This document shows positions 239-26,337 of a DNA stretch of 30,943 nt, piece by piece. A model generated the notes under the pieces. It saw nothing but the letters and a program-made list of their open reading frames with translations. It ran no database searches and was not told the origin of the DNA. Positions within the stretch are counted from its first letter, which is position 1. Every line of letters begins with the position of its first letter. Source of the stretch: a virus; IMG/VR virus record IMGVR_UViG_3300043331_002410, positions 1 through 30,943 of that record. The stretch is one strand, 5' to 3'. Made by a program: the position numbers and the translations under genes.

Positions 239-1810
239 CTAGGTGGAGCACTTCAGGAAGATGGCGGCGTCGAAGTTCTGCACGCCGCCGCCGACCCGCT
301 TCGTCGTGTAGAACTCGACGAAGCCCGGCCGGCGGTACGGATTGCGCAGCACGCGCACGCCGATGCGATCGACGATGATGTAGGTCTTGCGCCAGTCGCC
401 GAAGCCGACCGGGAAGGTGTCGGTGCCGATGTCGGGCATGAACTCGTCCTCGTCCACCGGATAGGCCAGCAGCGTCGGCGGCTGTCCCGCCACCAGCGAC
501 GGCTGCCACAGGTACTGCCCCGTGGTGTCCTTGAACTTGCGCACCTCGCCGACGGTCGCGCGCGTCATGAGCCAGCTGGCGTTCTTGCGGTGGCCCGACT
601 TCAGCTCCTGCATCTGGTTGATGAGAGCATCGCCGGGGTTGGTGGCCGCGAAGTTGCTGGCCGCGCCGGTGACGCGGAACCGGAAGCTGCCGTGCACCCA
701 GTTGGCGGGCGTCACGAAGGGATAGGTCATCAGCCCGCGCGGCTGCGTGGTGCCGTTGCCGTTGAACCAGGCGTCTGATTCCTGCAGGTCGAAGGCCTCG
801 GCGATCTCCTCGGCCAGCCACGCCTCGATGTCGATGATGGCGTCGTCGAGCATGATCTGCGTCGCCGCCGGCATGGCGTAGAGCTCCATGGTCGCGTACT
901 TGTCGAGGCCGAGCGTGGGGGTGCTCGTCTCGGGTCGCGGGTCCGTGCGCTCCGCCGTCCAGCCGGCCTGCGCGCCACCGGTGCGCATCGGCTGCACCAG
1001 CTCGCTGGTGCTGATCTCGCGCACCAGCGCCCGCTGGCGCATCATGCTAAGCTCGGTCAGGAAGGTGCGCAGCGGCGAGCGCTCGTGCTCCGGCAGCACC
1101 AGATAGCCGCCTTCGGGGTTGAGCTCAGTGTGCAGCGCCTTCTTCTGGATCGCCCTGAGGTGCTCGCCCTCGAAGGTCTCCTCGCCGGTGCGCATGTAGT
1201 GGATGACGGCCTTGCGCATCTTCTGCTCGGCCAGCTCGGCCATCTTCCGCATGCCGGCGGTGCGCGGCAGGCCGGGCAGGCCTGCGCCGAGGCCGGGCGG
1301 GCGGTCGCGCTTGACCTCGGCGGCGCTGATGCGCTTCTCGAGATCGCCCAGGCGGTCGATCACCACGTCCATGCGGCGGAGCTGGTCGAGGTCGAGCGGA
1401 TCGCCGGCGCGCCGGCCCTTGCCGAGCCGGCGGTCGTTGATCTGCTTGTAGAGCTCGTAGGCCCGCAGCTTGCGCTCATGCGCATCGCGCAGGGTCGTGG
1501 GGTCAGCGGGCTCGCGCGTTAGCGGGGCGCGGCGCGCGGGCGCCACCGGCGTGCGCGGCGTCGCGGCGGCCTTGCTGGCGCGCGCCATGCCATCGATCAC
1601 CTGGCCCTGGCGCAGCACCTCCTTGCCGATCTCGATCACCGCCTGCTTCACGTCGTCGCCGCCGGCCGGCGGTTGCGCGCCGCGCCGCGGCTGTCCACGC
1701 CGTGCTCCCAGCGTCTTCGTCTCCAGCGCGGCAGCGCCACGCTCCATCTCATCGAGGATGGCGTCGAGGTTGTCCCCGCCGAAAGCGGGCGCGGTGTTCA
1801 GCTGATGCAT
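239..1810 (-). CDS. Major capsid protein, HK97 fold
   Basis: This 523-residue protein should form the icosahedral shell. The first ~200 residues are charged and helical with Pro/Ala/Arg-rich linkers, as expected of an HK97-type N-terminal delta/scaffold region removed during maturation. The conserved part begins near 'NPEGGYLVLPE', followed by an acidic region with 'FNGNGTTQPRG', a recognisable HK97-family loop, and a C-terminal 'VGGGVQNFDAA' strand. I chose the ATG at 1810 because GGGAGA lies about eight bases upstream; the frame is open for 12 more codons without a better start. It follows portal and protease genes in the usual order. The exact cleavage site is not determined. Confidence 0.95.
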   Translation of the reverse strand: MHQLNTAPAFGGDNLDAILDEMERGAAALETKTLGARRGQPRRGAQPPAGGDDVKQAVIEIGKEVLRQGQVIDGMARASKAAATPRTPVAPARRAPLTREPADPTTLRDAHERKLRAYELYKQINDRRLGKGRRAGDPLDLDQLRRMDVVIDRLGDLEKRISAAEVKRDRPPGLGAGLPGLPRTAGMRKMAELAEQKMRKAVIHYMRTGEETFEGEHLRAIQKKALHTELNPEGGYLVLPEHERSPLRTFLTELSMMRQRALVREISTSELVQPMRTGGAQAGWTAERTDPRPETSTPTLGLDKYATMELYAMPAATQIMLDDAIIDIEAWLAEEIAEAFDLQESDAWFNGNGTTQPRGLMTYPFVTPANWVHGSFRFRVTGAASNFAATNPGDALINQMQELKSGHRKNASWLMTRATVGEVRKFKDTTGQYLWQPSLVAGQPPTLLAYPVDEDEFMPDIGTDTFPVGFGDWRKTYIIVDRIGVRVLRNPYRRPGFVEFYTTKRVGGGVQNFDAAIFLKCST

Positions 1811-1851
1811 GGGTCGGTCTCCCGTTTCGGGTTGGGTCACGCACACTGTCG

Positions 1852-1911: not shown

Positions 1912-2592
1912 TTAGCGGCTGAGCTTGGCGCCGCGCGTCTTGATGGCCGTGGCCAGCTCAGCGAGCTCGTCGCCGATGTCAGCGCCGCCGCGCGGTATGA
2001 ATAGCTCCGGCGCACCGTTTCCGAAGAGGTACAGGCTGTCGCGGCGCCGCTTCACGGTGTCGATGCGCGCGTCCTGATTCATCGGGAAGGTGACGACCGA
2101 CACTTCCCACAAATCGATCTCCTTAAGGCGGCGGACACCCTGGGAGGGATAGCCCATCGGCCCGAACTCGCTGCCCCCGTGCGCTCCATCCTCGATGGCA
2201 TCCATCTCCCACAGCTTGCACTCGTAGCCGATGGAGAGGCCGTCGACACCGCCGCGACGCATCAAGTCAAGGGCCTGGCGGCCACGATCGAAGCTGGTGA
2301 GGATCTGCCCCTTGCAGAGCAGGCCGTGACTGTCCTCGTGGATGTCAACCCAGATGCCGATCGGCTCCGCGGTCAGGTGCTGCCACAGGAGCTTGACGGT
2401 GGTGCCGCGCCGCTTGTGCTCGGCCAGCGAGCCGGCAAAGGCGCCGGGCATGACGATGTCGCCGCCGCCATCCTCGACATTGAACACGCTGCCGTAGCCG
2501 ACAAACGTGCCGTCCTCGGCCACGTCATCGGCCTTGATGCGGATGGCCTTGGCGTAGTGTGGTGCCCGCGCCGCCGTTTCCTTGATGAGCAT
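1912..2592 (-). CDS. Prohead (capsid maturation) serine protease
   Basis: A 226-residue HK97-family prohead protease, which cleaves the capsid N-terminal region inside the procapsid. Visible family features are an N-terminal 'GTFVGYGSVFNV' strand, the catalytic His in 'LLWQH' (His72), the nucleophile in 'VDGLSIGY' (Ser120) and the following 'LKEIDLWEVSVVTFPMN' block. Its ATG overlaps the portal stop by one base (TAATG) and is preceded by GGAGGGAAG, a strong ribosome-binding site, so the start is secure. The ~40-residue tail after 'MNQDARI' is poorly conserved in general and unremarkable here. Confidence 0.95.
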   Translation of the reverse strand: MLIKETAARAPHYAKAIRIKADDVAEDGTFVGYGSVFNVEDGGGDIVMPGAFAGSLAEHKRRGTTVKLLWQHLTAEPIGIWVDIHEDSHGLLCKGQILTSFDRGRQALDLMRRGGVDGLSIGYECKLWEMDAIEDGAHGGSEFGPMGYPSQGVRRLKEIDLWEVSVVTFPMNQDARIDTVKRRRDSLYLFGNGAPELFIPRGGADIGDELAELATAIKTRGAKLSR

Positions 2593-3965
2593 TACGTCTT
2601 CCCTCCAAGCCAGGTCGGCAGCCAGCGCCTCGCCTTGTCGCCAGCTCCCGGATCGGCCGGCGCCCGCGCCGGCGCCGGGGTTTGAGACCGGCCAGGGGCG
2701 GGCAGCGGATTGGTGCCGATCGGCGCGAACACGTCGTTGGCACGCGGATCGTCGATCGGCTCCAGCTCCTCCTCGTCGCGGATCTCGTTCACCGTCTTGA
2801 GGTTCTGCTGGCGCGCCGTCTGGTGCATGGCATACCGCTGCGTCGGCAGCGGCCGCAGGTAGGCGTTGCGATCGTGCTTCCAGTAGAGCTCGGCATCATC
2901 GGCGAGCAGGTCGCGCTCCGCCTCCTGCTCCCAGCGGATGAGCCACGGGTCGAGCGTGTCGGTGAGGTGCGCGTAGTTGAGCTGCTCGATCGAGCTGTAG
3001 CTCTGGGTGCCGGTGGCGTGCATCACCTTGACGGGCTGGGTCCGGAAGATGCGGCAGGCCTCCTCGATCAGCAAGCGATAGAGCGCAATGGAATCGGCGT
3101 CCTTGGCGCTGATGCCCATGGCCGAGTATGTGAAGCCGCCGTCGAGGATCGCCACCCCTCCCTCGCCGTCAGGACCGAACTGGCGCTGCCAGGTCTCCCG
3201 GATGCGGTCGAGGACCTTGGGGTCGATCTTGTTCTCGGATGTGACGATGCCGGACGGCCGCTGGTCCTTGCCGTAGAACTTGGCCTGCGACTCGGTGAGG
3301 CGCTTGGAGAGACCCAGCACCTCGCGCGCCAGCGTCACGCGGTTGATGCCGCGGAAGCCGTCGTAGGAGATGCTGGTGAGACGGAAGATGCGGTCTGGCG
3401 ATACCGTAACGGACTGCCAGGTCTCGCCCCAGCTCTCGCCGAACCACACATCGTAGACGAGCTGATTGTCGACCCAGCGCGGCACGCACTGGCCGGGCAG
3501 CAAGGGCCACAGCTCGCCCACCGCCCCCTTGGCGTTCATCGCCTTCCAGGCATAGCCTGTGCCTGACAGCATGGCGTGCAGGGTCAGCGTCTCCTTGAAG
3601 GCCTGCGCCGTCATGTACTCGTTCGGGCGCACCTCGAGCAGCTTGGCGAGGCGATTGAGGGGCTCGCGTGTGGACTTGCCGACGGAGGTGCGGCCGCTCT
3701 TGTCGCTGGTATCCCAGCGGTAGAGCTGCAGCGGCATCTTGCCAACGTCCTCGGCCACCACGGTGACGCATGCCATCACCGCGGCGATCTCCATGGCCGT
3801 GCGCGTCGAGATCGACACGCCGGACTTGGTGCCGCGCCACTCCGCCAGCAGCTCGAGGCCATTGCCGGGCGTGCCATCGAGGACCTTGCCCTCTAGCGGC
3901 GCCAGCCACGCACCCTGCTCAATCGCCGCGACCTCGTCGGGCGAGTAGATTTCCGGCTCGGCCAT
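2592..3965 (-). CDS. Portal protein, HK97 gp3-like
   Basis: This 457-residue protein should form the dodecameric channel at the capsid vertex. Family signs are 'AVMACVTVVAEDVGKMPLQLY' near residues 60-85, 'YAWKAMNAKGAVGELWPLLPGQC', the 'DGFRGINRV' segment, 'GKDQRPSGIV', and 'PVKVMHATGTQSYSSIEQLNYAHLTDTLDPWLIRWEQE', the hallmark of the phage_portal family. The C-terminal tail is Pro/Ala-rich. Start is the ATG at 3965; no strong ribosome-binding site is seen. The Acb1-like gene lies immediately upstream, ending 20 bases before. In some Mu-like phages such a domain is fused to the portal C-terminus; here it is a separate gene. Confidence 0.93.
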   Translation of the reverse strand: MAEPEIYSPDEVAAIEQGAWLAPLEGKVLDGTPGNGLELLAEWRGTKSGVSISTRTAMEIAAVMACVTVVAEDVGKMPLQLYRWDTSDKSGRTSVGKSTREPLNRLAKLLEVRPNEYMTAQAFKETLTLHAMLSGTGYAWKAMNAKGAVGELWPLLPGQCVPRWVDNQLVYDVWFGESWGETWQSVTVSPDRIFRLTSISYDGFRGINRVTLAREVLGLSKRLTESQAKFYGKDQRPSGIVTSENKIDPKVLDRIRETWQRQFGPDGEGGVAILDGGFTYSAMGISAKDADSIALYRLLIEEACRIFRTQPVKVMHATGTQSYSSIEQLNYAHLTDTLDPWLIRWEQEAERDLLADDAELYWKHDRNAYLRPLPTQRYAMHQTARQQNLKTVNEIRDEEELEPIDDPRANDVFAPIGTNPLPAPGRSQTPAPARAPADPGAGDKARRWLPTWLGGKT

Positions 3966-3985: not shown

Positions 3986-5062
3986 CTACGCCGCCTTCTC
4001 GAGGTCGGCGATCATGCGCTGCAGATCAACAGCGCCCGCCTTGTCGTCCTCGCCGCTTTCATCAGCTCCGGCGATGGCATCGAGCCGGCGCCGTACTTCG
4101 GCCATGCTCCGGTCCAGGCTGTTCAGAATGTCCTGGTAAAGAAACTCGCGATCGGCAGGCACGTTTGCCGCAATGAATTCCTCCCACCTGGCTCTTGCTG
4201 CCTGCAGCTCTTCCAGCTCGAGCTCCAATGCCGCTGCATCGGTGGGCTTGCCGAGAAGCCAATCCAACACGCCCTTGCGGTCTTGCACCGTGGCCTTTTC
4301 CTCGAGGCGGCGGCGGTCGGCGTTCCACCCGGCGTTCGGGTTGCCATCCTCGTCGGCGCCCTCGCCCGTGGACTCGTTGTAGACGAAGCCATCGACATAT
4401 TCGTCGAGGGCGTCCAATACCGGATAGGAGGGATGGGACGGGTGGTTGCGCCACTTGTCGAGCACGCTGTGGACGTATTGCGCTAGACCCTGCATCTCAT
4501 CGATTGCGGATTGCTCGCCGAAGCCGAACAGCTTCTGCTCAGCGCTCATGGCCTTTTCTCCCTCGAAGGCATCGACAACGAGGCGGTCGAACACCAGGTC
4601 GAAATCCGGCAAGTCGCGGTCGCGCATGTCCGGCTCGCCGTCCCAGTTGTAGCTCAGCGAGATGTGCGGCTTGAACTCGAACGTCGGCTCTGCACCATAG
4701 GTCTCGACGAGGTGCGTGCGCATCGCCGCGAGCTGGTCGCAGTGAGCCAGCAGCATCACCGGCGTGTCCTCATCACGGCCGAGGACGCCACAGCCGATCG
4801 GCACCACTGCAACGGGCTCGATGAGACGGTCGGCGAGCGGGATCGCCACGTCGTTGACGGTCGCCAGCAGCGTGACGTGGAAGGCGTGCCCCTCGTGCGG
4901 ATTGGGGCCGCCCACGTCGAAGCCCATGGCGTGGGCCCAGGCTGTAAGGTTGGCCTGGGTGGCGGGATCAGCGTAGAGCATGACGATGCGACGGCCGGGC
5001 GCGTCGTCGTGCTCCGCATCCGTCGCCCAGCCGCCGGCCGGACCCAGCACGGTGGAGAGCAT
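3986..5062 (-). CDS. Acb1-like 2H phosphoesterase (candidate anti-CBASS) with C-terminal helical domain
   Basis: A 358-residue two-part protein. Residues ~24-160 carry the two signature motifs of a 2H phosphoesterase, His62-Val-Thr64 (in 'HAFHVTLLAT') and His133-Ile-Ser135 (in 'FKPHISLSY'), 71 residues apart. Overall layout ('LYADPATQANLTAWAHAMGF' at the start, 'PTFEFKPHISLSYNWDG' at the end) matches the phage Acb1 anti-CBASS family. Known members hydrolyse cyclic oligonucleotide signals of bacterial CBASS immunity. Residues ~165-358 are acidic and helical with a probable coiled coil near 280-335; I do not recognise this part. Start ATG at 5062 lies eight bases after the cement gene stop, without a clear ribosome-binding site. 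Alternative: another 2H enzyme such as a 2'-5' RNA ligase-like protein. Confidence 0.72.
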   Translation of the reverse strand: MLSTVLGPAGGWATDAEHDDAPGRRIVMLYADPATQANLTAWAHAMGFDVGGPNPHEGHAFHVTLLATVNDVAIPLADRLIEPVAVVPIGCGVLGRDEDTPVMLLAHCDQLAAMRTHLVETYGAEPTFEFKPHISLSYNWDGEPDMRDRDLPDFDLVFDRLVVDAFEGEKAMSAEQKLFGFGEQSAIDEMQGLAQYVHSVLDKWRNHPSHPSYPVLDALDEYVDGFVYNESTGEGADEDGNPNAGWNADRRRLEEKATVQDRKGVLDWLLGKPTDAAALELELEELQAARARWEEFIAANVPADREFLYQDILNSLDRSMAEVRRRLDAIAGADESGEDDKAGAVDLQRMIADLEKAA

Positions 5063-5070
5063 GCCCGGTC

Positions 5071-5490
5071 TTACGCCGGCACCACGACGCCGGTGGGCCA
5101 GATGTTGAGGAGGATCTCGTCGGCGTCGTAGCCCACGCCGATCAGCACCACCTCGTCGCCGGCGGCGAGGTCCGCCTCCGGGCAGATGCCGCCGGCGGTG
5201 CCGGAGAGCACGTAGATGGTGCCCGGTATCACGGTGGCACCGATCTGGATACGGCCGGCGGTCTGCCACGCGACCGGCTGGCCCTGGGCGGCGCCGTGTA
5301 GCGCCACGCCCTTGGCCTTGCGCGCCGCGGCGCCAGGTGAGCCGGCGTCCGCGTCGGCGAGGTTGACCGTTCCGTCGCCGACATCGTAAAGGGCCTGGCC
5401 TGCGAGGATGGCGGCGGCCGCCCGGCTGTGCCTGACGACGGCGCCGACGCCTTGCTCGACGTTGGCCGGAGTAATGGAGAGGTCTGCCAT
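5071..5490 (-). CDS. DUF2190-like capsid cement/decoration protein
   Basis: A 139-residue small beta-rich protein, Gly/Ala/Val dominated, with no membrane segment. The pattern 'AILAGQALYDV', 'KAKGVALHGAAQGQPVAW', 'GATVIPGTIYVLS' and 'GDEVVLIGVGYDADEILLNI' is typical of DUF2190-type proteins that decorate or stabilise phage heads. GGAG about eight bases before the ATG supports the start. Unusually it sits between the large terminase block and the portal rather than next to the capsid gene. Function on the outer capsid surface is inferred from the family. Confidence 0.75.
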   Translation of the reverse strand: MADLSITPANVEQGVGAVVRHSRAAAAILAGQALYDVGDGTVNLADADAGSPGAAARKAKGVALHGAAQGQPVAWQTAGRIQIGATVIPGTIYVLSGTAGGICPEADLAAGDEVVLIGVGYDADEILLNIWPTGVVVPA

Positions 5491-5550: not shown

Positions 5551-6159
5551 TCAAGCGTAGTTATGTTGCCCGTACTCGGAGAGGCTGTTCTCGATCAGAT
5601 ACTGCTCCTCGACGCCTTCGGCATCGAGCTGGTCACTGAGCTTTACCCACGCCTCCCACGCGGCATCGAGACGCTTCTGGAGCTCAGCCACTCTGGGCTC
5701 GTGCTTTTCCCGCTCCACCTTCGCAGCAGCAATCGCCTCCTCGTGCTCCTTCATCTCATCGACCAGCGATTCGAGATCGACCTCGGCATCCTGCAGCTCA
5801 CTGTCGACGGCATCGTAAGCTTCCACGGCTTTCAGCTGCTCGGCGAGCAGCGCCTCGGTGTCGGCCTTCGTCTCCACCGGGCCATGCCCAGACATGGCCT
5901 CGCCCTCGCCGCCCTGGTAGTGCTGCTGGAATTGCTCTTCCCCCAGGCTTTCGAGCGCGCCCTGGAACAGCTCCAGCTTCTCATTGAGGAAGGCGGCAAC
6001 AACACCATTCGGATCAGCGTCGAGCCGTTGCAGCTCGTCGGCGAGCGGCTGCATGCGTTCGATCAAATCGATCACCTCGCGGGAGCGTGCAAGCTGCTCG
6101 GAGATGGTGAGAATTTCCCGTTTGCGGCCGAGCCGTTCCAGCATCGTCGCGAGTGTCAT
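5551..6159 (-). CDS. Acidic coiled-coil protein of unknown function
   Basis: A 202-residue protein rich in Glu, Ala, Leu and Gln, almost entirely predicted helix. Long heptad-like stretches run from about residue 3 to 60 and 105 to 175; a Gly-rich hinge near 'YQGGEGEAMSGHG' separates them. Its ATG overlaps the large terminase stop (ATGA), so it is translationally coupled to packaging. Position between terminase and cement/portal genes would allow a scaffold or head-assembly role, but acidic composition alone does not show it. I recognise no family. Confidence 0.65.
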   Translation of the reverse strand: MTLATMLERLGRKREILTISEQLARSREVIDLIERMQPLADELQRLDADPNGVVAAFLNEKLELFQGALESLGEEQFQQHYQGGEGEAMSGHGPVETKADTEALLAEQLKAVEAYDAVDSELQDAEVDLESLVDEMKEHEEAIAAAKVEREKHEPRVAELQKRLDAAWEAWVKLSDQLDAEGVEEQYLIENSLSEYGQHNYA

Positions 6160-7802
6160 GGCAGCACCACCAGCTCCTGCGTGTCGAGATAGCTCCGGCC
6201 GGGATCCTCGCCGGCCATCGCCAGCGCGATCACCGCAGCCGCGACGCCGTCGATCTTGCCCTTCGAGTGGCCCTTCGACGGCATGTAGTTGTCGTTGGCA
6301 TCGCGCCGGATCGTCGTGTTGCCAACGTGCCAGCGCAGCACCGGATGGCTCCCGTGGTCCAGCTTGCCTAACAGCACCAGCCGTTCCAGGTGTTTCGACG
6401 GCGCCGACATGGAGGCGATGCCGAACCGCACCAGCTCGATGGGAAGGCCGTCGTCGGTGAGGTGCGTGGCCAGCATGTGCGCATTCCAGGCGTCGAAGCC
6501 GTCCTTCTGCACGTCGAACTTCTCGTGGTCCGCCCTGATCTGCGCCTCGATGGCGTCGTGGTCGGCGGCGTTGCCGGTCGTCGGCGTGATGGCACCGAGC
6601 TTGGCCCAGCTCTCCACCGGCACCCGGCTCTTCGCCGCGAACAGCTTCAGGTTGGCGTCGGGCCACCAGAAGCGGCACAGCAGTGTCCACCGCTCCAGCG
6701 CACCCTGCGGCGGGAACACGAGTACCCGAGCACACATATCGCGAGCCGAGGCGAGGTCGTTGCCGGCGAAGCAGCTGGCGCCGACGAGCTCGTCCTCCAG
6801 CGCCTTCCAGCGTCCCTCGCCGCTGGTGCACGCCGCCCAGGCCGGCGCCGATATCCACCGCTCCGCCGCGCCCACCCAGATGTTGAGGTGATAGCGCTTG
6901 AAGTCGTTCTCGCGCGACGCCAGCTGCGCCGCCTCGCGCGCCATCTTGGCCAGGTAGTCGGCGCGGGGCGAGACCGGGTAGTTGGGGTTGGCCTCCGCCC
7001 ACACCGCCGGATCCTGAATGTCGATCTCGACCTTGGGGTCCTGATCGGCACACCAGATCACCACCAGCGTCTCCGGATCGTCGAACACGCCCTCGCATAT
7101 CTTGAGGCTCTCGTCCCACAACTCCTGGCCGTAGCCCTCCTCCACGCCGGCCGTGGAGATCAGCCACTCCATGGGCTGCTCGCGGCTGCCCATGCCCTGG
7201 CGCACGAAGGTGTAGAGCTTGTCATTCGGCCACTCGTGCACCTCGTCTCCCAGCAGGTACGTGGTCGAGAGGCCGTGCTTGCCGGTCGGTTTGCCCGTGA
7301 GCGGGCGGAAGATGCTCGAAGTCGCCTCCAGCCACAGGCTGGCGCTGAAGGGCTGATACTGCTCGGACAGCTCCGGCGAATAGGCCGCCATCTGCACGGC
7401 GCGATCGAAGACGATCTCCGCCTGGTTGCCGTGGCTGGCGATAGAGTAGCACTCGGCCGAGTGCACCGCATCGCCAAGCAGCAGCAGGTGGGCGACGCCG
7501 GCGAGCAGCTCGGTCTTACCGTTCTTGCGCGGCACCCAGATCATGACCCGGCGATAGAGCCGGGTGCCGTCCGCGCGCTTCCAGCCGAAAGCCGGCCGAA
7601 CGATGTGGTCACGCTCCCAGGCGGGCAGCTCGAACACCTGGCCGGCCCACTTGTCCTTGGTGAGGCGGCAGTAGCTCGGGAAGAAAGCGGTGGCGGCCGT
7701 GGCCGCTGCCTCATCCCACCAGATGCCGAGCGGGCCGCCCTTGCGGGGGGTGGGCGAGCGATAGCGCGGCTCGCCGGGTTTCAGCCTCCTTTGTCGCGAC
7801 AC
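6156..7802 (-). CDS. terL: Terminase large subunit (ATPase-nuclease)
   Basis: This 548-residue motor protein packages DNA into proheads and cuts it. Visible parts: Walker A 'PRKNGKT' (residues 91-97), Walker B 'LLGDE' (183-187) followed by 'VHEW', a motif III-like 'MEWLISTAG' (211-219), and a C-terminal nuclease domain with Asp349 in 'CFAGNDLAS' and Asp518 in 'GKIDGVAAAVIALAMA'. Length and motifs fit the HK97/Terminase_1 group that partners P27-type small subunits. Start is a GTG at 7802, 14 bases after the upstream stop. No good ribosome-binding site precedes it, but AAAGGAGG occurs just inside the gene, so a slightly later non-ATG start cannot be excluded. Confidence 0.94.
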   Translation of the reverse strand: MSRQRRLKPGEPRYRSPTPRKGGPLGIWWDEAAATAATAFFPSYCRLTKDKWAGQVFELPAWERDHIVRPAFGWKRADGTRLYRRVMIWVPRKNGKTELLAGVAHLLLLGDAVHSAECYSIASHGNQAEIVFDRAVQMAAYSPELSEQYQPFSASLWLEATSSIFRPLTGKPTGKHGLSTTYLLGDEVHEWPNDKLYTFVRQGMGSREQPMEWLISTAGVEEGYGQELWDESLKICEGVFDDPETLVVIWCADQDPKVEIDIQDPAVWAEANPNYPVSPRADYLAKMAREAAQLASRENDFKRYHLNIWVGAAERWISAPAWAACTSGEGRWKALEDELVGASCFAGNDLASARDMCARVLVFPPQGALERWTLLCRFWWPDANLKLFAAKSRVPVESWAKLGAITPTTGNAADHDAIEAQIRADHEKFDVQKDGFDAWNAHMLATHLTDDGLPIELVRFGIASMSAPSKHLERLVLLGKLDHGSHPVLRWHVGNTTIRRDANDNYMPSKGHSKGKIDGVAAAVIALAMAGEDPGRSYLDTQELVVLP

Positions 7803-7816
7803 ATTGCAGGTGCAGA

Positions 7817-8887
7817 CTACGCGGCGCGTTCCAGGACAGCGAGGCGTGCATGCAGGGTACGGCCGTCCCCGGCCGACGCGGTCTCCAGCGCCCTCTCAAC
7901 CTGCAGCATCAAATCCAGGATGATCTCGATCTCAGCCGAGGAGGCTGACCCACTGGTGTAGTAACCCAGCAACTCCGCTTGCATGGCGCGCAGCTCGGCC
8001 TCGGTGAGGTCGTCGGCGGACAGCGACGAAGCGATTGCGTCTAGGCGGCCGAGCACTTCCGTATCGAGTGCCTTGCGGGCCACGGCGCCGCGGCGCGACT
8101 GCAGCAGTGGCGCGCCGCCGGATTCAATTGTCTCGTAGGCCTGCTCGATCCATTCCCCGAAGCCCGCGATCTCGCTCAGCAACTCGCGCCCTTCGGCGAT
8201 GGGATTGGCGTTGAAGTCTGAGACCGGGAATGCCACGGTGAGCTTTTGGAGGCGCATAGAGATTTCGAGAAGCGTGTTCAGCGCGGTCTCGCGCCCCCAC
8301 TCGCTCCCAGGCTGGTCGCGCACCAGCTCGACCATCGCTGCTGCTTCAGTCCACATCCCTTCGAGCTCTGCCCGCGCCGCCTCGATCTCGGCCTGGTAGT
8401 CGCGGCCGTCGTCCTTGCGCGTGAAGATGGCGGCCAGCGACATCTGCTCACCGTCGTCCTCATCCTGAGCCAGGATGGTGTCGACCTCTTCTAGCGCCGT
8501 CTCGGTCGCATCGCGCGCAGCCCCGGCGCGCTCCGATCTAATGAACGTGAGTGCGCCCACGGCGTCGTTGAGGTTCGCGCGCGCCCGCTCCGCGAACGCC
8601 CGTTCCTCGGGGAATAACGTCGCCTTCATGGCCTTCTCGTCCTCGGTGGCGTCACCATAGCCTCCGGCGTCGTTGATCATCGCCTGCAGCTGGCCGATGC
8701 CCTCCATCACGGACAGGTGCGCATCCAAGAGCCACTCCCGGTCAGGATAGGTGCTGGCCAGGTGCTCGATCTGCTCCTTGAGCCGTAAAAGCGCATCTTG
8801 CTCCTGCTGCAGCTTGGCGCCGTCGTCACCAAGGGCTGCACGGATGTTGGTCCACAGGCCCTTTCGGCCGGCAGTGGTCACAGGCAT
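7817..8887 (-). CDS. Unknown acidic helical protein between the terminase genes
   Basis: A 356-residue, Glu/Ala/Leu-rich soluble protein with repeated helical segments. A probable coiled coil lies near residues 25-70 ('LQQEQDALLRLKEQIEHLA'), and an acidic stretch 'LAQDEDDGEQMS' lies in the middle. No catalytic motif is visible. The ATG at 8887 has a very strong GAGGAGG site that overlaps the stop of the small terminase gene, so expression is certain to be coupled. A gene of this size inserted between small and large terminase is not standard. It may aid packaging or be an accessory gene carried in a late-expressed slot; no family recognised. Confidence 0.65.
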   Translation of the reverse strand: MPVTTAGRKGLWTNIRAALGDDGAKLQQEQDALLRLKEQIEHLASTYPDREWLLDAHLSVMEGIGQLQAMINDAGGYGDATEDEKAMKATLFPEERAFAERARANLNDAVGALTFIRSERAGAARDATETALEEVDTILAQDEDDGEQMSLAAIFTRKDDGRDYQAEIEAARAELEGMWTEAAAMVELVRDQPGSEWGRETALNTLLEISMRLQKLTVAFPVSDFNANPIAEGRELLSEIAGFGEWIEQAYETIESGGAPLLQSRRGAVARKALDTEVLGRLDAIASSLSADDLTEAELRAMQAELLGYYTSGSASSAEIEIILDLMLQVERALETASAGDGRTLHARLAVLERAA

Positions 8888-11576: not shown

Positions 11577-12908
11577 TCATGGGCTCCCACGGAGAATACG
11601 CTGGTATGGTGCCCACAGCGGCGCACCATGACTAGAGTAGCCGCCTGCCGGCTCCTCCCAACTGTCGGGCCCGATCAACAGGCGGCCGTCACTGGTTGCA
11701 ACGACCTCCCCCGTGCGCAGACCCCGCGTCAGCTCGCCCATCGCTGGCACCAGACCCGCTGGGGGGATCAAGAATCCCCACTTCACGTTCCGATACGCCA
11801 AGGGCGGGAGCACAAGAGCGACGACGACAAGTAGCATCAGTGTGCGGATCCCCGCGGCATACATAAGCAGTGGGACGATTAGGAGCGGCGCGAACAACAG
11901 ATGGCGGCCTTCGCTTAGCGACCCGTTGAGCCAGACTAGCGAGAAAATGACACTGAGAATGGAGGTAGCGGCGACGCTGACCAACACGGCGAAGCGAAGG
12001 TGCATCGCGCGCGACCCACTCGAACCGCGCCAAATGAGCGCCGCAATCACCACCAGCGCAAGGAGTACCGGCAAAGCCAAGTAGTCCGGCGCCAGAAGAG
12101 TGCCAATCGCAATGCCGGCATCGACGAGATTTGCTAGCGGCGATTGCTGTCCACCGACTATAGGATGGCTGCCCACCTGGCCCAGGGACCATCGGACCAC
12201 AATCCCCGCACCCAACGAGGACAGTACAAGCAGCGCGGCGGTTGCAAGCCGAGACATGAGCCCATGTCGTCCCAAGACGACAACCGCTCCGGCGCCGGCG
12301 GCAACGAAAACCACGCTGGCGTTATGAGTGGTCAAGAGAGCGGCACCCAGGAAGCAAGCGCACGTGTACAATAGCCAGTCCGCAGTTTGTTTCCGCATGG
12401 CGATCCAGATGCATGCAAGGAACACTGGCAGCAGGGTGTACGCCAGATTTTGCGCAAGGACCGCCTGTTGATTTAGCGGCACGAACAGCCCGACAAAGAG
12501 CACCGCGGCCGTCAGCACGCCGATGTGAACCTTGAGCGCGGTCTCCCTGAAGAGCACGAGAGACAACCAGAGCCAGGCAGAGGCCTGCAGCACGAGCAGC
12601 ATGCCGTTTGCAACGATGAGCGTGAGGCCGTACGGACCCAAAGCCTTTGTCCAGGCTGCTAGGTAGAGCGGGTATAGCGGCGGCCACGCGACAATGGGGT
12701 TGCCCGAAAAGTACCTGTAGTCTTTGCCTTCTGCAATCGAAACGGCGCCTTGCCATGCAGCCCAGCCGTCGGGCGTCAAGCCGATGCCGTGCCGGTGCTG
12801 CGCCACATAGACCAGGAGAGCGACCAAGCCCGCCAGCAACGACCACTGGCCGACCGGACCGGTCTGGCTGCCGTCGCTTGTGGGGGAGGAAAGGAACCTC
12901 GATGGCAT
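11577..12908 (-). CDS. GT-C-like integral membrane glycosyltransferase
   Basis: A 443-residue protein with about ten hydrophobic segments, starting near residue 23. The first large loop carries 'GLTPDGWAAWQGA...' with Asp after 'TP' and ends '...VAWPPLYPLYLAAW', a pattern typical of GT-C enzymes using polyprenyl-phosphate sugars. The last ~60 residues form a soluble tail. Such enzymes add sugars to lipid-linked or LPS glycans at the periplasmic face, and phages use them to change host surface antigens. ATG at 12908 is preferred; a GTG at 12932 is in frame. It converges on the FkbM gene with 25 bases between the stops. The sugar and acceptor cannot be told. Confidence 0.7.
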   Translation of the reverse strand: MPSRFLSSPTSDGSQTGPVGQWSLLAGLVALLVYVAQHRHGIGLTPDGWAAWQGAVSIAEGKDYRYFSGNPIVAWPPLYPLYLAAWTKALGPYGLTLIVANGMLLVLQASAWLWLSLVLFRETALKVHIGVLTAAVLFVGLFVPLNQQAVLAQNLAYTLLPVFLACIWIAMRKQTADWLLYTCACFLGAALLTTHNASVVFVAAGAGAVVVLGRHGLMSRLATAALLVLSSLGAGIVVRWSLGQVGSHPIVGGQQSPLANLVDAGIAIGTLLAPDYLALPVLLALVVIAALIWRGSSGSRAMHLRFAVLVSVAATSILSVIFSLVWLNGSLSEGRHLLFAPLLIVPLLMYAAGIRTLMLLVVVALVLPPLAYRNVKWGFLIPPAGLVPAMGELTRGLRTGEVVATSDGRLLIGPDSWEEPAGGYSSHGAPLWAPYQRILRGSP

Positions 12909-12929
12909 TGAGTGGACGCCCCGCAACCA

Positions 12930-12969
12930 CACAGAAATAAGCGTCAGTGGGTATCACGCCCACAGACGC
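12930..12969 (-). terminator. Rho-independent terminator-like hairpin, minus strand
   Basis: GCGTCaGTGGG (12941-12951) and CCCACaGACGC (12959-12969) form two 5-base stems around one mismatch with a 7-base loop. On the minus strand TTATTTCTGTG follows. It would end the long leftward operon after the gene at 12999. It lies only ~30 bases before the glycosyltransferase ATG, so that gene needs readthrough or a promoter overlapping the stem. A weak candidate promoter is TTGGCA (revcomp 12993-12998) with TGAAAA 16 bases on. Confidence 0.5.
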
Positions 12970-21031: not shown

Positions 21032-21858
21032 GCTGCCTCTCCTGCACACGTGAGGCCGCACTCCACGTCATGCTCCTCGCCGTCGTCCACGAAGCCGTCG
21101 AACAGGTGACCTTGTGCCGTCACCTCGGCGAGGAGATCGGCGTAGCTGTATTCGGTGACGAAGCGGCCGCCGGTCCGGTGCTCCTGCTCGATCCACCAAT
21201 CGGCCGCTCCGGGATTTTCGCGGATGATGGCGAGCTTCTTCTGGCGGGACTTGAGGAAGCACAGATCGCAGTTACCCTCGTAGTCGCGCAGACCCAGATC
21301 GAACGGCTGGTTGGCCCAGCACCCCTTCACCGCCGGTTTAGTCACCTTCGCCTTGTCGAGCGGCATGACGCTGATCCAGCGCTCGCGACCCTGCTCGTTA
21401 CGATCGATTTGTTTCATCACGCGCCAACCTTCGTCGTGTCGAAGGCCGACAACGTTTGTCCACCGCCCCCACCCCAGCGACAGCGCGAAGTTCCGCATCA
21501 CGCGGATCTTCAGTTCCTGAGTGCAGAAGCGCGCGACCGCGTTGGGGGCGAACTTGCGCTCGGCGACCAGCGCCTCGAACGGCTCACCCTTACGTGCTGC
21601 CGAGTTGTAGCCGACCTCCTGGAAGCCGCCGCCCGCCGCGCGCTCCAGCCAGCGCACGCGCACGCCCCAGCGACTGCCACACTCGTGCACGAAGCGCAGC
21701 GTCTCCTCGCGCTCCTTGCCAGTATTGGCGAAGCAGACGTGCACATCGTCGGGGAGCTCGCCGTCCCAGGCCTTGACGATCTCGTGAAGCATGTAGGCCG
21801 ACGTGCGCCCGCCAGAGAACGACACGAGTGCTGGACCTTCGATGCAGTAAGGGTTCAT
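21028..21858 (-). CDS. PAPS-reductase-like PP-loop ATPase
   Basis: A 276-residue adenine-nucleotide alpha-hydrolase. The PP-loop is 'SFSGGRTSAYM' (Ser15-Gly-Gly-Arg-Thr-Ser20), with 'VCFANTGKE' after it and 'VVGLRHDE' (137-143) as a PAPS-reductase-like block. Four cysteines (112, 180, 197, 200; the last two as CDLC) could hold an iron-sulfur cluster, as in the related DndC and TtcA groups. Canonical sulfate reduction is improbable for a phage. A role in DNA or tRNA thiolation or other modification is an inference from its place among three methyltransferases. ATG overlaps the upstream stop (ATGA). Confidence 0.85.
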   Translation of the reverse strand: MNPYCIEGPALVSFSGGRTSAYMLHEIVKAWDGELPDDVHVCFANTGKEREETLRFVHECGSRWGVRVRWLERAAGGGFQEVGYNSAARKGEPFEALVAERKFAPNAVARFCTQELKIRVMRNFALSLGWGRWTNVVGLRHDEGWRVMKQIDRNEQGRERWISVMPLDKAKVTKPAVKGCWANQPFDLGLRDYEGNCDLCFLKSRQKKLAIIRENPGAADWWIEQEHRTGGRFVTEYSYADLLAEVTAQGHLFDGFVDDGEEHDVECGLTCAGEAA

Positions 21859-24446
21859 GCCGCCTGTCCCTCCGGCTCGGACGCCTTGAGCGCGTCGAAC
21901 AGCGACGGCATGGAGCGCTCGCGCTCGGCCGCGGCGCAGTAGTAGGCGCCATCAAGGAAGGAGGTATGGTTCAGCTCGCTGGCCGCCCCGCGCCGGCCCT
22001 TGAGGATGGCGCGATAGGGCACCGTCATCAGCCCGCCGAACGGGTCGTAGACGAGCTCTCCGGGGTTGGAGTAGCGCTCGATCAGCCGGTCGACGACGTC
22101 GAACTGGAGCGGACAGATGTGCTGCTCGACGTTGCGCCGCGCCTGGCTGCCGTTGAGCGTCAGCATGCGGTTCACGTCGTGCCAGACATCGGGATGGTGC
22201 GAGCCTGGCGCCAGCGCCATGAAGGTCGCCGGCAGGGCGCCCTTGGCCTCCAGCTCCTCGCCGATGCGGACGTGGAACTCGTAGTCGTACACGCCGGCCA
22301 GGCTGTACGCGGTGAAGGCCTTGGCGAGCGCAGCCGGGCCGAGGGCCGCCAGGTCCTGCGCCGTGATGGGACGGTCGCCGCTCGACTTCCAGAAGGCGTG
22401 CGCGTCCACCTGCCAGCGGGCGCGGGTGTACGCCTCCTTGCTCTTCACCACCGGCACGTCGGCGTAGCTCTTCGAACGGTCAGACTGGGGCTTGCGCAGC
22501 AGCACGATGTATTCTGGGCTGCCCACGCCCATCTTGGTGCCGTCCTTGCACTGCTCGCTCCAGCCGAGGCGATAGGTCTGATTGTTCTCGCGCACCACGT
22601 CGGTGACGATGGTGATGAGGCCCAGGTAGTCGAAGCCGTGGCGGCGGCCGTGCTCGATGGTCTCGGCGTGGAAGGGACTGATGGTGGGCACGCCGGTGCC
22701 CATGACGTTGCCGAACAGCACCCGGTCCTTGACGTGGATGCAGGCGAGCCGGCCCGGCCGGAGCATGCGGAGCAGCTCCGGCGTCAGGAAGTCCATCTGC
22801 TGCCAGAAGTGGGCATTGTCGTCGGTGTGCCCGAAATCGTTGTAACTCTCGGTGTACTCGTAGTGATTGGAGAAGGGGATCGACGTGACGATCAGGTCGA
22901 CAGAGGCATCGGCCTGTCGCCGCGCCTCGTCGACACAGTCGTTGCAGGCGATGGTGTAGCGCTCCGCCTTCACCTCCACCCGCTCGACGCCGATGGAGCG
23001 CCGCAGCGTCTCGGCCATGGCGGCGTGGTCCAGGCCGTACTTGCGGATGATCTCCCCCATGCGCGCCATCATCTCCTCGTGTCGTGCCCACTTGGCCTTG
23101 AGGGTGCGCAGCACCTCGCGCTCCGCCTCGGTGTAGATCAGGTGCACCTCGCACGGCCGCGTCTGCCCGAAGCGCTGGATGCGGTGGATCGCCTGAATGA
23201 AGTCGTTGAATTTGAAGCCGATGCCGAGGAACACCGCCTTGTGGCAGTAGCGCTGGAAGTTGCAGCCGCTGCCCGACAGCTCCGGCTTGGTGGCGAGGTA
23301 CTTGAACTCACCCTCCGAGAAGGCGATCACGTTGGCCTCGCGCGTCTCCAGGTCCTGGCTGCCGTAGACGCTCACCGCGCGAGGGACGGCGGCCTCGATG
23401 GCCTCGCGCTCCGCCTCGAGGTCGTGCCAGAGCAGACAGTGGGCTGCAGGATCCTCGTCGATGATCTCCAGCATCTTGGCGATGCGGCGGGGCAGGCTCT
23501 CGCGCTTCTCATGGGCGGCGGCCGTTACGCCCAGCGCCGCATCCTTGAACAGCAGAGCCTGGCCGTCCTTCTCGATGCCGGCGAGTCCATGATCGGTCGG
23601 CACCTCGTGGTAGACCACCTTGAGGGGCGGCAGATCGTATCCCGCGTCGGAGAAGCCGAGGTCCGAGGGCTTCTGCACGAACAGCGCCCAGCTGTGCACC
23701 CACAGCCAGAACTCGTCCTCCTTGTGCGGGTAGAGGCTGAGCTCGTTGGCTTTGGTGCTGTCGCGCTGGAAGAAGCGGGTGAGCGCCTGGCCCGTGTCCA
23801 TGATGCCGAGAAAGCCGGCGTAGTGGATCAGCTCCTTGAAGCGGTTAGGGCTGGGCGTGGCGGTGGCGACGAAGCGGAAGCGGACGCCGGCGAAGAGGCG
23901 CAGGAACTCGTGATAGGTCTTGGTGCCGTAGCTGCGCAGCACCGAGGCCTCGTCGAGGCTGGCAGCCACGAACAGGCTGGGGAGGAGCTTGCCGTCGCGG
24001 ATGGTCTCGTAGTTGGTGAGGTAGATCACCGCGCCTGCGGTGTCGCCCTCCATCTCCTCGGCTGAGCGGATGAACTTGAGGCGCACGGCGTTCGCACCGG
24101 TGAAGTGCGCGGCCGCGTCGCGCATGAACTCCTGGCGCACGCCGAGGGGCAGCACGATGAGGCGGCGGCCCTGCACATGCCGGCCGATCAGCCGCATGAT
24201 CTCGATCTGCATCGTCGTCTTGTGCAGCCCGAAGCTCGCGAAGATCGCGCGCTGCCCGCCGCGCAGGGCCCAGCGCACGATCGGCTTGCAGTGCGGCCGC
24301 AGCGCCGGGTTGATCTCCGCCACGCTCACCTCGATGCCGTCGAAGGCGGCGAGCTTGATCTTGCCCTCGAGGAAGGTGCGATAGTCGCCGCTGGCCTCGC
24401 CGATGCGGGCAGTGCGCTTGGTGGGGGCGATGTAGGGCTTGCTCAT
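21855..24446 (-). CDS. Helicase-DNA methyltransferase fusion
   Basis: An 863-residue two-domain protein. Residues ~50-460 are an SF2/SNF2-like helicase: Walker A variant 'FGLHKT' (72-77), 'DEAS' (165-168), 'TATP' (195-198), then 'SGSGCNFQ' and 'QAIHRIQRFGQTR' (418-430). Residues ~495-863 are an amino-methyltransferase in the permuted order: catalytic 'TSIPF' (521-525) before the SAM motif 'DPFGG' (801-805). No nuclease domain is visible, unlike type ISP or type I restriction proteins. Similar fusions occur in phages, and P1 DarB is a known helicase-methyltransferase antirestriction protein. ATG at 24446 overlaps the preceding stop (ATGA), which settles the start. Confidence 0.88.
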   Translation of the reverse strand: MSKPYIAPTKRTARIGEASGDYRTFLEGKIKLAAFDGIEVSVAEINPALRPHCKPIVRWALRGGQRAIFASFGLHKTTMQIEIMRLIGRHVQGRRLIVLPLGVRQEFMRDAAAHFTGANAVRLKFIRSAEEMEGDTAGAVIYLTNYETIRDGKLLPSLFVAASLDEASVLRSYGTKTYHEFLRLFAGVRFRFVATATPSPNRFKELIHYAGFLGIMDTGQALTRFFQRDSTKANELSLYPHKEDEFWLWVHSWALFVQKPSDLGFSDAGYDLPPLKVVYHEVPTDHGLAGIEKDGQALLFKDAALGVTAAAHEKRESLPRRIAKMLEIIDEDPAAHCLLWHDLEAEREAIEAAVPRAVSVYGSQDLETREANVIAFSEGEFKYLATKPELSGSGCNFQRYCHKAVFLGIGFKFNDFIQAIHRIQRFGQTRPCEVHLIYTEAEREVLRTLKAKWARHEEMMARMGEIIRKYGLDHAAMAETLRRSIGVERVEVKAERYTIACNDCVDEARRQADASVDLIVTSIPFSNHYEYTESYNDFGHTDDNAHFWQQMDFLTPELLRMLRPGRLACIHVKDRVLFGNVMGTGVPTISPFHAETIEHGRRHGFDYLGLITIVTDVVRENNQTYRLGWSEQCKDGTKMGVGSPEYIVLLRKPQSDRSKSYADVPVVKSKEAYTRARWQVDAHAFWKSSGDRPITAQDLAALGPAALAKAFTAYSLAGVYDYEFHVRIGEELEAKGALPATFMALAPGSHHPDVWHDVNRMLTLNGSQARRNVEQHICPLQFDVVDRLIERYSNPGELVYDPFGGLMTVPYRAILKGRRGAASELNHTSFLDGAYYCAAAERERSMPSLFDALKASEPEGQAA

Positions 24447-24637
24447 AGCCGCCATCCCGCCGTCCACACCCAGTAGCCCCAGGACAGCACGAACAAGCGA
24501 TAGGTCCCGGTAGGCCCTCGCGCCGCCAGCTCCCAGCCGAGCCGTGGACACCACAGCCATCTGACGAACTGGGAACCAGTGCCTACGAAGCACTTGCCAA
24601 GCCAAAGATACCGGACGGCCTTTTGCAACCGCCTCAT
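24443..24637 (-). CDS. Small Trp-rich protein
   Basis: A 64-residue basic protein with seven tryptophans ('RYLWLGKCF', 'VRWLWCPRLGWEL', 'FVLSWGYWVWTAGWRL'). Both ends overlap neighbours by ATGA, which supports a real gene. The last ~18 residues are hydrophobic and could associate with the membrane. No family recognised; it may be a small partner of the flanking methyltransferases. Confidence 0.6.
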   Translation of the reverse strand: MRRLQKAVRYLWLGKCFVGTGSQFVRWLWCPRLGWELAARGPTGTYRLFVLSWGYWVWTAGWRL

Positions 24638-26337
24638 GCCTCGCCTCCCATCAGCGCCAGCGCCAGCGCGCAGCCGGTACGGCGCGGCACGGCCTGGCCG
24701 ATCTGACGCACCACCTCGGTCTTGTTGCCGCTGAAGTGGTAGGGCCTCTCCGGCTCCGAGATGCTCATCGCCGCGGCGAGCTCGTGCGGCTCGAGCATGC
24801 GGAACAGGATGTCGTACTCGCGGCCGGCGGTAACCAGGTTGGTCCGGCCGGTGGCACAGATCGTGGGCGTGGGCTCCTCCACCGAGTGCACACGCGGCGC
24901 CTGCGTCGGCCGCTCGCCGAAGCTGGCCGTGATGAAGGCGAGCTCGCCGCGCTTGGCGGTGGTGAGTGTGGGAATCGGATCGTCGATGGAGCGCGCGCGG
25001 TTGCTGCCGTCGGAATGGGTGACCGGCATCACTAAGCCGAAACGCGCCTTGGCTGTGGCGGTCGGCAGCGGATCATCGACTGACTTGCAGGTCTCGCCCG
25101 AACCCGAACCGTAGTAGGGCGCAATGAGCGCGTGGCCCGCCTTGTTGACTAGGCCGGGCACGGGCTCACCGACCGAGCGCGGCGCTCCTCCCGCGTGGTT
25201 GCTGAGGACGAAGGGCTGCACGACGCCGACGCGCGGGACTGTCGTGACCGTCGGCAATGGATCGTCGACGCTGCTGCTGTCGCGCCGGAAATGCTGCTTG
25301 AGCACGAACGGCTCTACCAAGCCGAAGTCCGCGCTCGTGGCTGTGATGGTCGGCATCGGGTCCGACACCGGGCGTCGTCCCCGGCTGCGCTGCTCGTTCA
25401 GGTGCAGGGTGAACGGCTGCACGAGGCCGAGGTGAGTCCCTCCTGCGGTAATGGTAGGCAGCGGCACGTCGATGCCCAGGGCATCGCAGTGCTGGCGCAG
25501 CACCAGGATGAACGGCTCGGGCCATCGGAACTTGACGATGCCGGCGGCGATGCGGGCGAGCGTCTTGGGTGCCAACGGCCGCTTGCGGTCGAAGATGGAT
25601 TTGCCGGGGACCGACCAGTCGATGATCTCGCGCGCGGCGCGCCACGGCTTGGCGCCGAACAGATCGCCGCCGCCCTTGACGTGGCTGGGCTCCGGCCAGC
25701 GGATCGCCCCGCCGTCGCTGCGGCCCAGGATGAACAGGCGCTCGCGCGTGGTGGCGTCGCCGTAGTCGGCGCAGTTGAGCACGCGCCGCTCCAGCCGGAA
25801 CCCGATTCCCTCCAGTGCCGCCCACCACGCCCGGAAGTACTCGCCCTTGCGGCTCGCCACCGGCTTGCCGGTACGCGCGTTCACTGGTCCCCAGTCCTCG
25901 AACTCCGGCACGTTCTCGAGGAGGAGGCGCTTGCAGCGCAGCTCCGTGCACCAGCGCACCACGTGCCAGGCGCTCATGCGCTGCTGGTCGTTGACGGGCT
26001 TGCCGCCGCGTGCGCGCGAGAAGTACGTGCACTCGATGCCGGCCATCAGCAGGTCGAGCTTGCCCTCCGGCACCAGCTGGGACGGGAACGCCGCGTCGAG
26101 CGTGACGCAGTGCGCCCGTGCGCCAATGTGGTTGCGCAGGTAGGTCTCGATCGCCACGGGCCAGTGATTGACCGCCACGAACTCCGGCCGGTAGCCGAGC
26201 TCGGTGAGCGCATCGTTGGCGCCCATGGAAAGCGAGCCTGCCCCACAAAAGAGGTCCGCCACCAGCGCGCGGCGCGTGCGAGGCACCGGCCGCACGCCGG
26301 CACCTGACAGGGGCAGATCGGCAAGGCCGCCGTGCAT
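24634..26337 (-). CDS. C5-cytosine DNA methyltransferase with internal repeats
   Basis: A 567-residue enzyme. Motif I 'ADLFCGAGSLSMG' (27-39), catalytic Cys103 in 'AGIECTYFSRARGG' where most family members have PCQ, motif VI 'ENV' (141-143), motif VIII 'TTRERLF' (196-202), and C-terminal motifs IX/X in 'GNKTEVVRQIGQAVP' (537-551). Between VIII and IX lies a long region with seven repeats of the form D-x-P-x-P-T-[IV]-T-A (next feature), in place of a normal target-recognition domain. The E-C-T variant with 'RARGGKPV' is familiar from phage enzymes. Separated by one base from the upstream stop. Likely protects phage DNA from restriction. Confidence 0.9.
   Translation of the reverse strand: MHGGLADLPLSGAGVRPVPRTRRALVADLFCGAGSLSMGANDALTELGYRPEFVAVNHWPVAIETYLRNHIGARAHCVTLDAAFPSQLVPEGKLDLLMAGIECTYFSRARGGKPVNDQQRMSAWHVVRWCTELRCKRLLLENVPEFEDWGPVNARTGKPVASRKGEYFRAWWAALEGIGFRLERRVLNCADYGDATTRERLFILGRSDGGAIRWPEPSHVKGGGDLFGAKPWRAAREIIDWSVPGKSIFDRKRPLAPKTLARIAAGIVKFRWPEPFILVLRQHCDALGIDVPLPTITAGGTHLGLVQPFTLHLNEQRSRGRRPVSDPMPTITATSADFGLVEPFVLKQHFRRDSSSVDDPLPTVTTVPRVGVVQPFVLSNHAGGAPRSVGEPVPGLVNKAGHALIAPYYGSGSGETCKSVDDPLPTATAKARFGLVMPVTHSDGSNRARSIDDPIPTLTTAKRGELAFITASFGERPTQAPRVHSVEEPTPTICATGRTNLVTAGREYDILFRMLEPHELAAAMSISEPERPYHFSGNKTEVVRQIGQAVPRRTGCALALALMGGEA
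24823..25470 (-). repeat. Seven degenerate 31-36-residue repeats in the cytosine methyltransferase
   Basis: Units start near residues 290, 326, 358, 390, 421, 452 and 487, each with (D/E)-x-P-x-P-[TG] then, in most, '...GLVxPF'. Spacings are 36, 32, 32, 31, 31 and 35. Unit 4 (EPVPGL) is the most diverged. They occupy the target-recognition region of the enzyme. DNA identity between units is low, so they are old or under strong divergence. Confidence 0.8.

Follow-up and report, generated by a model that had tools for sequence, protein, structure and literature searches.

The window, by which we mean the whole stretch of DNA analyzed here, is a 30.9-kb virus record with all of its head genes encoded on the minus strand (Table 1). 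Among them lies an open reading frame for 358 amino acids that begins with an ATG at position 5062 and whose stop codon ends at position 3986. As had been proposed in the initial annotation, it is a stand-alone gene inside the head cassette and directly precedes the genes of an HK97-type portal, a protease and a capsid protein. Judging from gene position only, it would be expressed late.

Table 1. Features of the head gene cassette and of the 2H gene; E-values follow the family names.
Feature	Position	Strand	Details
TerS	9519-8899	minus	
Helical ORF between TerS and TerL	8887-7817	minus	356 aa
Terminase large subunit (TerL)	6156..7802	minus	phrog_9 3.9e-126
Putative helical/coiled-coil ORF in the gap between TerL and the small gene	5551..6153	minus	200 aa open frame
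Small structural-type gene upstream of the 2H gene	5071..5490	minus	phrog_4368 3.5e-6 (unknown-function family)
Acb1-like 2H protein gene with helical tail	3986..5062	minus	358 aa; directly upstream of portal
2H phosphoesterase domain	4550..5005	minus	residues 20-171
First catalytic motif H62-V-T64	4871..4879	minus	H and T invariant in 37/37 aligned relatives
Second catalytic motif H133-I-S135	4658..4666	minus	H invariant in 37/37; T or S in all
Candidate internal start	4547..4564	minus	GAGGGAG 4564-4558 and ATG 4549-4547 (M172); domain junction
C-terminal helical, acidic region	3989..4549	minus	residues 172-358 (~187 aa); AF2 helices 174-357
Portal-proximal helical module	3989..4276	minus	residues 263-358, starts KGVLDWLLG; separate gene in L007
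Portal, HK97 type	2592..3965	minus	PF04860 3.2e-74; TIGR01537 1.5e-45
Prohead protease S78	1912..2592	minus	PF04586 4e-30
Major capsid protein, N-terminal delta-like region	239..1846	minus	PF05065 1.2e-70, residues 246-532

The closest relative (L007) has the gene order of the window (TerL, small gene, 2H gene, portal, protease, capsid), with a counterpart of the small gene at 61%. The putative helical ORF at 5551..6153, whose GC3 is below that of the core genes, is missing in L007, where the small gene directly follows TerL. The 356-aa protein encoded between TerS and TerL looks wholly helical and has no family assignment; its gene has a strong ribosome-binding site (-12.6 kcal/mol) and a GC3 below that of the core head genes.

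Family, fold and substrate pocket of the 2H domain

The two HxT/S motifs reported in the initial annotation were found at the coordinates and residues given there (H62/T64 and H133/S135, 71 residues apart; the pair in T4 Acb1 is H44/H113). Since two such motifs 60-85 residues apart were also present in 2.8% of composition-shuffled copies, the spacing alone is weak evidence. The alignment showed the catalytic tetrad intact in the window protein and in all six members of its subgroup, and the domain is likely to have the predicted catalytic activity. That the first domain belongs to the 2H phosphoesterase class is very probable.

In the PHROG search residues 27-164 matched phrog_755 (E=3.8e-8), a family labeled 'RNA ligase' that we identify with the Acb1 family because JS98 gp57B, the orthologue of T4 Acb1, matches it at 2e-66. 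The Pfam model Acb1 (PF23474) was matched with an E-value of 2.7e-5 and 24.4 bits, which is under the curated cut-off of 27, and PF13563 was matched weakly and with a lower score than Acb1 (E 0.004; 17.6 bits against a cut-off of 27). Acb1 outscored PF13563 for the window protein but not for the related protein of L008. Profile-profile comparison of the window protein and four near relatives with relatives of T4-type Acb1 gave 99.3% probability (E 5e-20), and a wider profile searched against the PDB rose above noise only for Acb1 entries (7t26, 8e-8; 9q2g, 2e-4; 9q2y, 0.0097) and the Pam3 portal (8hds, 0.0015).

The AF2 model of the 2H domain (the first ~170 residues; pLDDT mostly >90) had as its top solved structures Acb1 entries 7t26 and 7t27 (Z 14.9 and 14.7; rmsd 2.4 over 133 residues for 7t26), followed by a Burkholderia phage phosphodiesterase named Acb1 in the PDB sequence file (Z 12.8), and then by plant CPDase and E. 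coli LigT (Z 10-11; LigT 10.7). A best structural match to LigT or CPDase, the outcome named beforehand as speaking against an Acb1-type protein, was looked for and did not occur; by both Pfam and structure the best match lies outside the LigT, 2'-5' RNA ligase and CPDase group, with solved Acb1 clearly ahead. In the phylogenetic tree of 41 domains a deep split (support 100/98 on both sides) separated T4-type Acb1 together with the portal-fused form from 26 rows that include the window protein, which on these sequences is placed in a clade that is sister to T4-type Acb1 with strong support, outside Acb1 proper.

In Acb1 the bases of the ligand stack on Y12, W74, F107 and W147, E141 contacts adenine, and residues 145-152 form a lid (Hobbs et al., 2022; PMC9117128). 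According to the alignment only, the corresponding residues of the window protein are I26, L94, F128, D164 and K170 (for Y12, W74, F107, E141 and W147, respectively), so that in comparison with Acb1 it lacks the C-terminal lid tryptophan and keeps one of the four stacking aromatics, F107. Its clade generally has aromatic residues at the Y12 and F107 positions, and its subgroup lacks the one at the Y12 position. Because the tetrad is kept while lid and stacking residues are missing, catalysis is likely but the identity of the substrate uncertain, and CBASS signals are for the same reason a hypothetical substrate. The window protein thus shares with Acb1 (T4 gp57B/FBB1, PF23474, phrog_755) the 2H fold, the HxT/HxS tetrad, the phage origin and homology at sequence and profile level, and differs from it in its helical tail and its head-operon site, T4 acb1 adjoining ipI and 57A. 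What stands of the proposed Acb1 identity is the Acb1-type fold with an intact tetrad; the sister-clade position, the sub-threshold Pfam score and the altered pocket do not agree with it, and the apt name is Acb1-like rather than Acb1.

Relatives, helical tail and N-termini

Relatives were drawn from viral contigs and phage genomes; the 2H domain was found in neither the genome contigs nor the plasmids searched, and no viral contig encoded anything close to the full-length protein, to its tail taken separately or to the product of the helical gene 7817-8887. The subgroup of the window protein comprises six members (window, L007, L008, L009, L010 and L059), all in head cassettes. The 2H domain of L007 occupies the same place as that of the window and is 65% identical to it, and the next nearest relatives (L008, L009, L059 and L010) share 42-50% identity over the domain. 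A search for PF04860 portals in the records of 42 relatives found one in L007 only, so the remaining relatives have recognizable portals of different families, or ones beyond the ends of the record. Two more relatives of the portal (L069 and L071) are on contigs that end within the upstream regions, so that the comparison at this site does not include them.

Several relatives carry the 2H domain on head proteins. The initial annotation had mentioned it as a C-terminal portal extension, and such proteins exist: PF06381 portals with a C-terminal Acb1 domain occur in L042, Synechococcus phage Ssp-JY40 and Pam3 (PDB entry 8hds). They have in common with the window protein the link of a 2H domain to the portal region, but theirs forms the portal C-terminus and groups with the T4-type sequences in the tree (L042), whereas that of the window belongs to the other clade and has a gene of its own, followed by an HK97-type portal gene. 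In L008, L009 and L059, which share subgroup and head cassette with the window protein, the domain is found instead at the N-terminus of DUF2213 head maturation proteases and is not joined to a helical tail; the portal and capsid families of L008 also differ, its PF06381 portal being without the 2H domain, unlike that of L042. In L047 a 2H domain is joined N-terminally to an XkdF-type protease (weak Pfam match, 0.001). Since the portal-fused (L042) and DUF2213-fused domains fall in two different clades, attachment to head proteins arose more than once.

Caulobacter phage Sansa gp24 (KT001913.1; L075:3459-4649) is the product of an XkdF-protease-like head gene and has a dead N-terminal 2H domain, in which DLKVNVL replaces DMHVTVI and the catalytic residues are lost; over its whole length it aligns with L047 (8e-34). 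Head attachment is therefore no guarantee of activity, and by its sequence gp24 is a case of a 2H domain on a head protein that has turned non-enzymatic. The 'prohead protease' of Roseobacter phage DSS3P8 (L074:3492-3944, AMO44187.1) is probably a misannotated stand-alone 2H protein of ~150 aa and was not counted as a fusion. L049:5305-6417 encodes a single protein in which a cytidyltransferase-like domain (phrog_3041) is fused to a 2H domain of the Acb1 type.

The tail of the window protein had been described as an unfamiliar acidic helical domain. It is helical and acidic (pI 4.4; 40 D/E against 20 K/R), but acidity does not mark it out because the 2H part is equally acidic, and its last ~100 residues recur as a separate portal-proximal gene in L007. 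Specifically, residues 263-342 matched the L007 ORF 2476-3081 (BLASTP E 1e-4; z 6.5 over shuffles, with 0 of 300 shuffles reaching the score), which sits directly upstream of the L007 portal. The L007 2H domain itself is followed by a different helical tail, which indicates a conserved enzyme domain with a swappable tail. When modeled alone the tail had a pLDDT of 61 and no reliable fold match in Foldseek (best matches ferritin-like, with E about 0.3 and worse), and no known targeting signal was found in the window protein, tail included. A paralogous relationship of the tail with the helical gene 7817-8887, which shares an 'RKG' motif, was unsupported by a shuffle test. Short W-containing motifs (LDWLLG, FDWLFG) are recurrent in accessory proteins of the L007/L069 type, and variable helical-looking ORFs, which resemble one another (z 7.4), lie between portal and protease in L007 (4313-5002) and L069 (1052-1972); the portal and protease genes of the window overlap with nothing inserted.

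At the domain junction the site preceding M172 has the strongest anti-Shine-Dalgarno pairing of the 38 ATG/GTG codons in the gene (-8.5 kcal/mol, against -3.4 kcal/mol at the gene's own start), although comparable sites were also present in other genes tested and such matches in GC-rich DNA are no proof. This suggests a candidate internal start that may additionally give rise to the free tail.

An N-terminus resembling the T4 capsid-targeting sequence (e.g., MKSFRTFMEE) was found in 8 of the 18 T4-like or large-phage proteins of the window's clade and in 4 of 274 other ORFs of these loci (Fisher 1.6e-8, for a motif defined post hoc on these sequences and with related rows that are not independent). 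In two further proteins (L013 and L018) the motif appears at another start codon, and the T4-type Acb1 clade showed no enrichment (1/10). The 2H proteins with such N-termini are L011, L013, L014, L018, L022, L023, L026, L027, L029 and L032. For comparison, T4 IPI, IPII and IPIII start with MKTFKEF or MKTYQEF, and T4 internal proteins with the capsid-targeting sequence are packaged defence proteins (PMC3012670). Unlike these, the window protein starts with MLSTVLGPAGG and is without the MKTxxEF sequence. No published link of capsid targeting with CBASS was found among open-access papers.

Proposed function and alternative explanations

Fusions of 2H domains to MuF and portal domains were described by Iyer et al. 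(2017; PMC5512222), who considered them likely to be packaged and suggested that they act as RNases or break down immune nucleotides, a proposal restated in 2022 (PMC9503650). Acb1 was found to cleave CBASS signals, the activity being shown for T4 and nine other relatives, and many acb1 genes were located in prophages near structural genes (Hobbs et al., 2022; PMC9117128). Among open-access papers, what appears to be new is that the sister clade is associated with the head, that 2H domains are fused to proteases, that N-termini resemble a targeting sequence and that the tail is portal-proximal.

Starting from what is directly established at the locus (the gene, its predicted fold, the tetrad, the gene position and the tail homology), we infer activity, substrate, head tethering and delivery as follows. 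The window protein would be a metal-independent 2H phosphodiesterase that hydrolyzes a cyclic (oligo)nucleotide immune signal, for example that of CBASS, by means of H62/T64 and H133/S135. Its helical tail, a portal-proximal protein in the closest relative, would tether the enzyme to the assembling head, and some copies in or on the virion would already be on hand at the start of the next infection. We regard this as the best explanation and assign a probability of about 0.45 to the reading as a whole, an Acb1-sister enzyme that clears an immune cyclic nucleotide, is tethered by its tail and is partly virion-borne. Taken separately, degradation of an immune cyclic nucleotide is somewhat favored, and association with or delivery by the head is a possibility that falls a little short of an even chance. 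Use of the start at M172 would yield a surplus of free tail, in which the form with the enzyme would travel as a minor component. The nested C and Nu3 genes of lambda provide an analogy for such an internal start.

For head delivery speak the place of the 2H gene amid conserved head genes, which is kept in L007, and the fusion of 2H domains from two clades to unrelated head proteins; the occurrence of related domains on several head proteins suggests, as far as sequences can tell, that phages carry a signal-degrading enzyme in their heads. As with virion-delivered effectors of the polyvalent type (Iyer et al., 2017; T4 internal proteins; P1 DarA), the enzyme domain is joined to or encoded with head proteins, here between a conserved small gene and the portal and with a tail homologous to a portal-proximal ORF. 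Counter-defence is probably common to both, the presence of the window protein in the virion being putative. More speculatively, the Acb1-like clade may broadly represent a head-packaged branch of counter-defence that reached the capsid by independent routes (T4-type targeting sequence, protease fusion, and portal-proximal helical fusion or nested co-expression) and enters together with the DNA, ahead of any CBASS-like signals.

The alternative that survives best, in our view still unlikely, retains the enzyme class and the anti-signalling role and places the protein in the cytoplasm, where a late product of the head operon would clear signals of late infection (e.g., from capsid or packaging intermediates) and the tail would be a joined accessory protein. 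It agrees with T4 Acb1, a 2H protein that stands free and has no head tail, and with sister-clade members (L016, L017, L028 and others) that are plain 2H proteins lacking the N-terminal motif. Against it speak the 2H domains that have repeatedly become joined to various head proteins, and the portal-proximal module in the tail of the window protein. Less probable is the degradation of a signal other than that of CBASS, of the Thoeris cADPR type or the cyclic oligoadenylates of type III CRISPR, by an open pocket that admits other ligands; the loss of lid and stacking residues relative to Acb1 would be compatible with this, although the pocket is deduced from an alignment.

An RNA end-healing or tRNA-repair phosphoesterase of the LigT/CPDase kind is decidedly improbable, as the common superfamily, the Z-scores of LigT and CPDase and the weak PF13563 match (0.004) are countered by Acb1 structures that score 4 Z units higher, by the Pfam ranking for the window protein (L008 excepted), and by the observation that these phage 2H versions never occur with RNA ligases (Iyer et al., 2017; PMC5512222). 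A non-catalytic structural relic on a head-associated protein, of which the motif-less domain retained beside head genes in Sansa gp24 is an example, is very improbable given the fully intact tetrad in the window protein and its entire subgroup.

As CBASS-type immunity runs on nucleotide alarm signals, the time and place at which a phage provides a signal-degrading enzyme matter. If such enzymes are carried inside the particle as proposed, phages would pre-empt nucleotide-signalling immunity from the first moment, and some of the genes annotated as 'RNA ligase' or 'hypothetical' in head operons would be accounted for. The two-clade pattern (portal, two kinds of head protease, helical protein and T4-style N-termini) makes the proposal testable with a few purified phages.

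Elsewhere on the minus strand of the window, positions 11577-12932 encode a protein of 451 aa with many hydrophobic segments and no family match, which is possibly a membrane protein. At positions 21855-26337 a helicase-methyltransferase fusion (916 aa; phrog_16 and phrog_67) adjoins a cytosine methyltransferase (567 aa; phrog_116), and these methyltransferases may serve self-modification against restriction.
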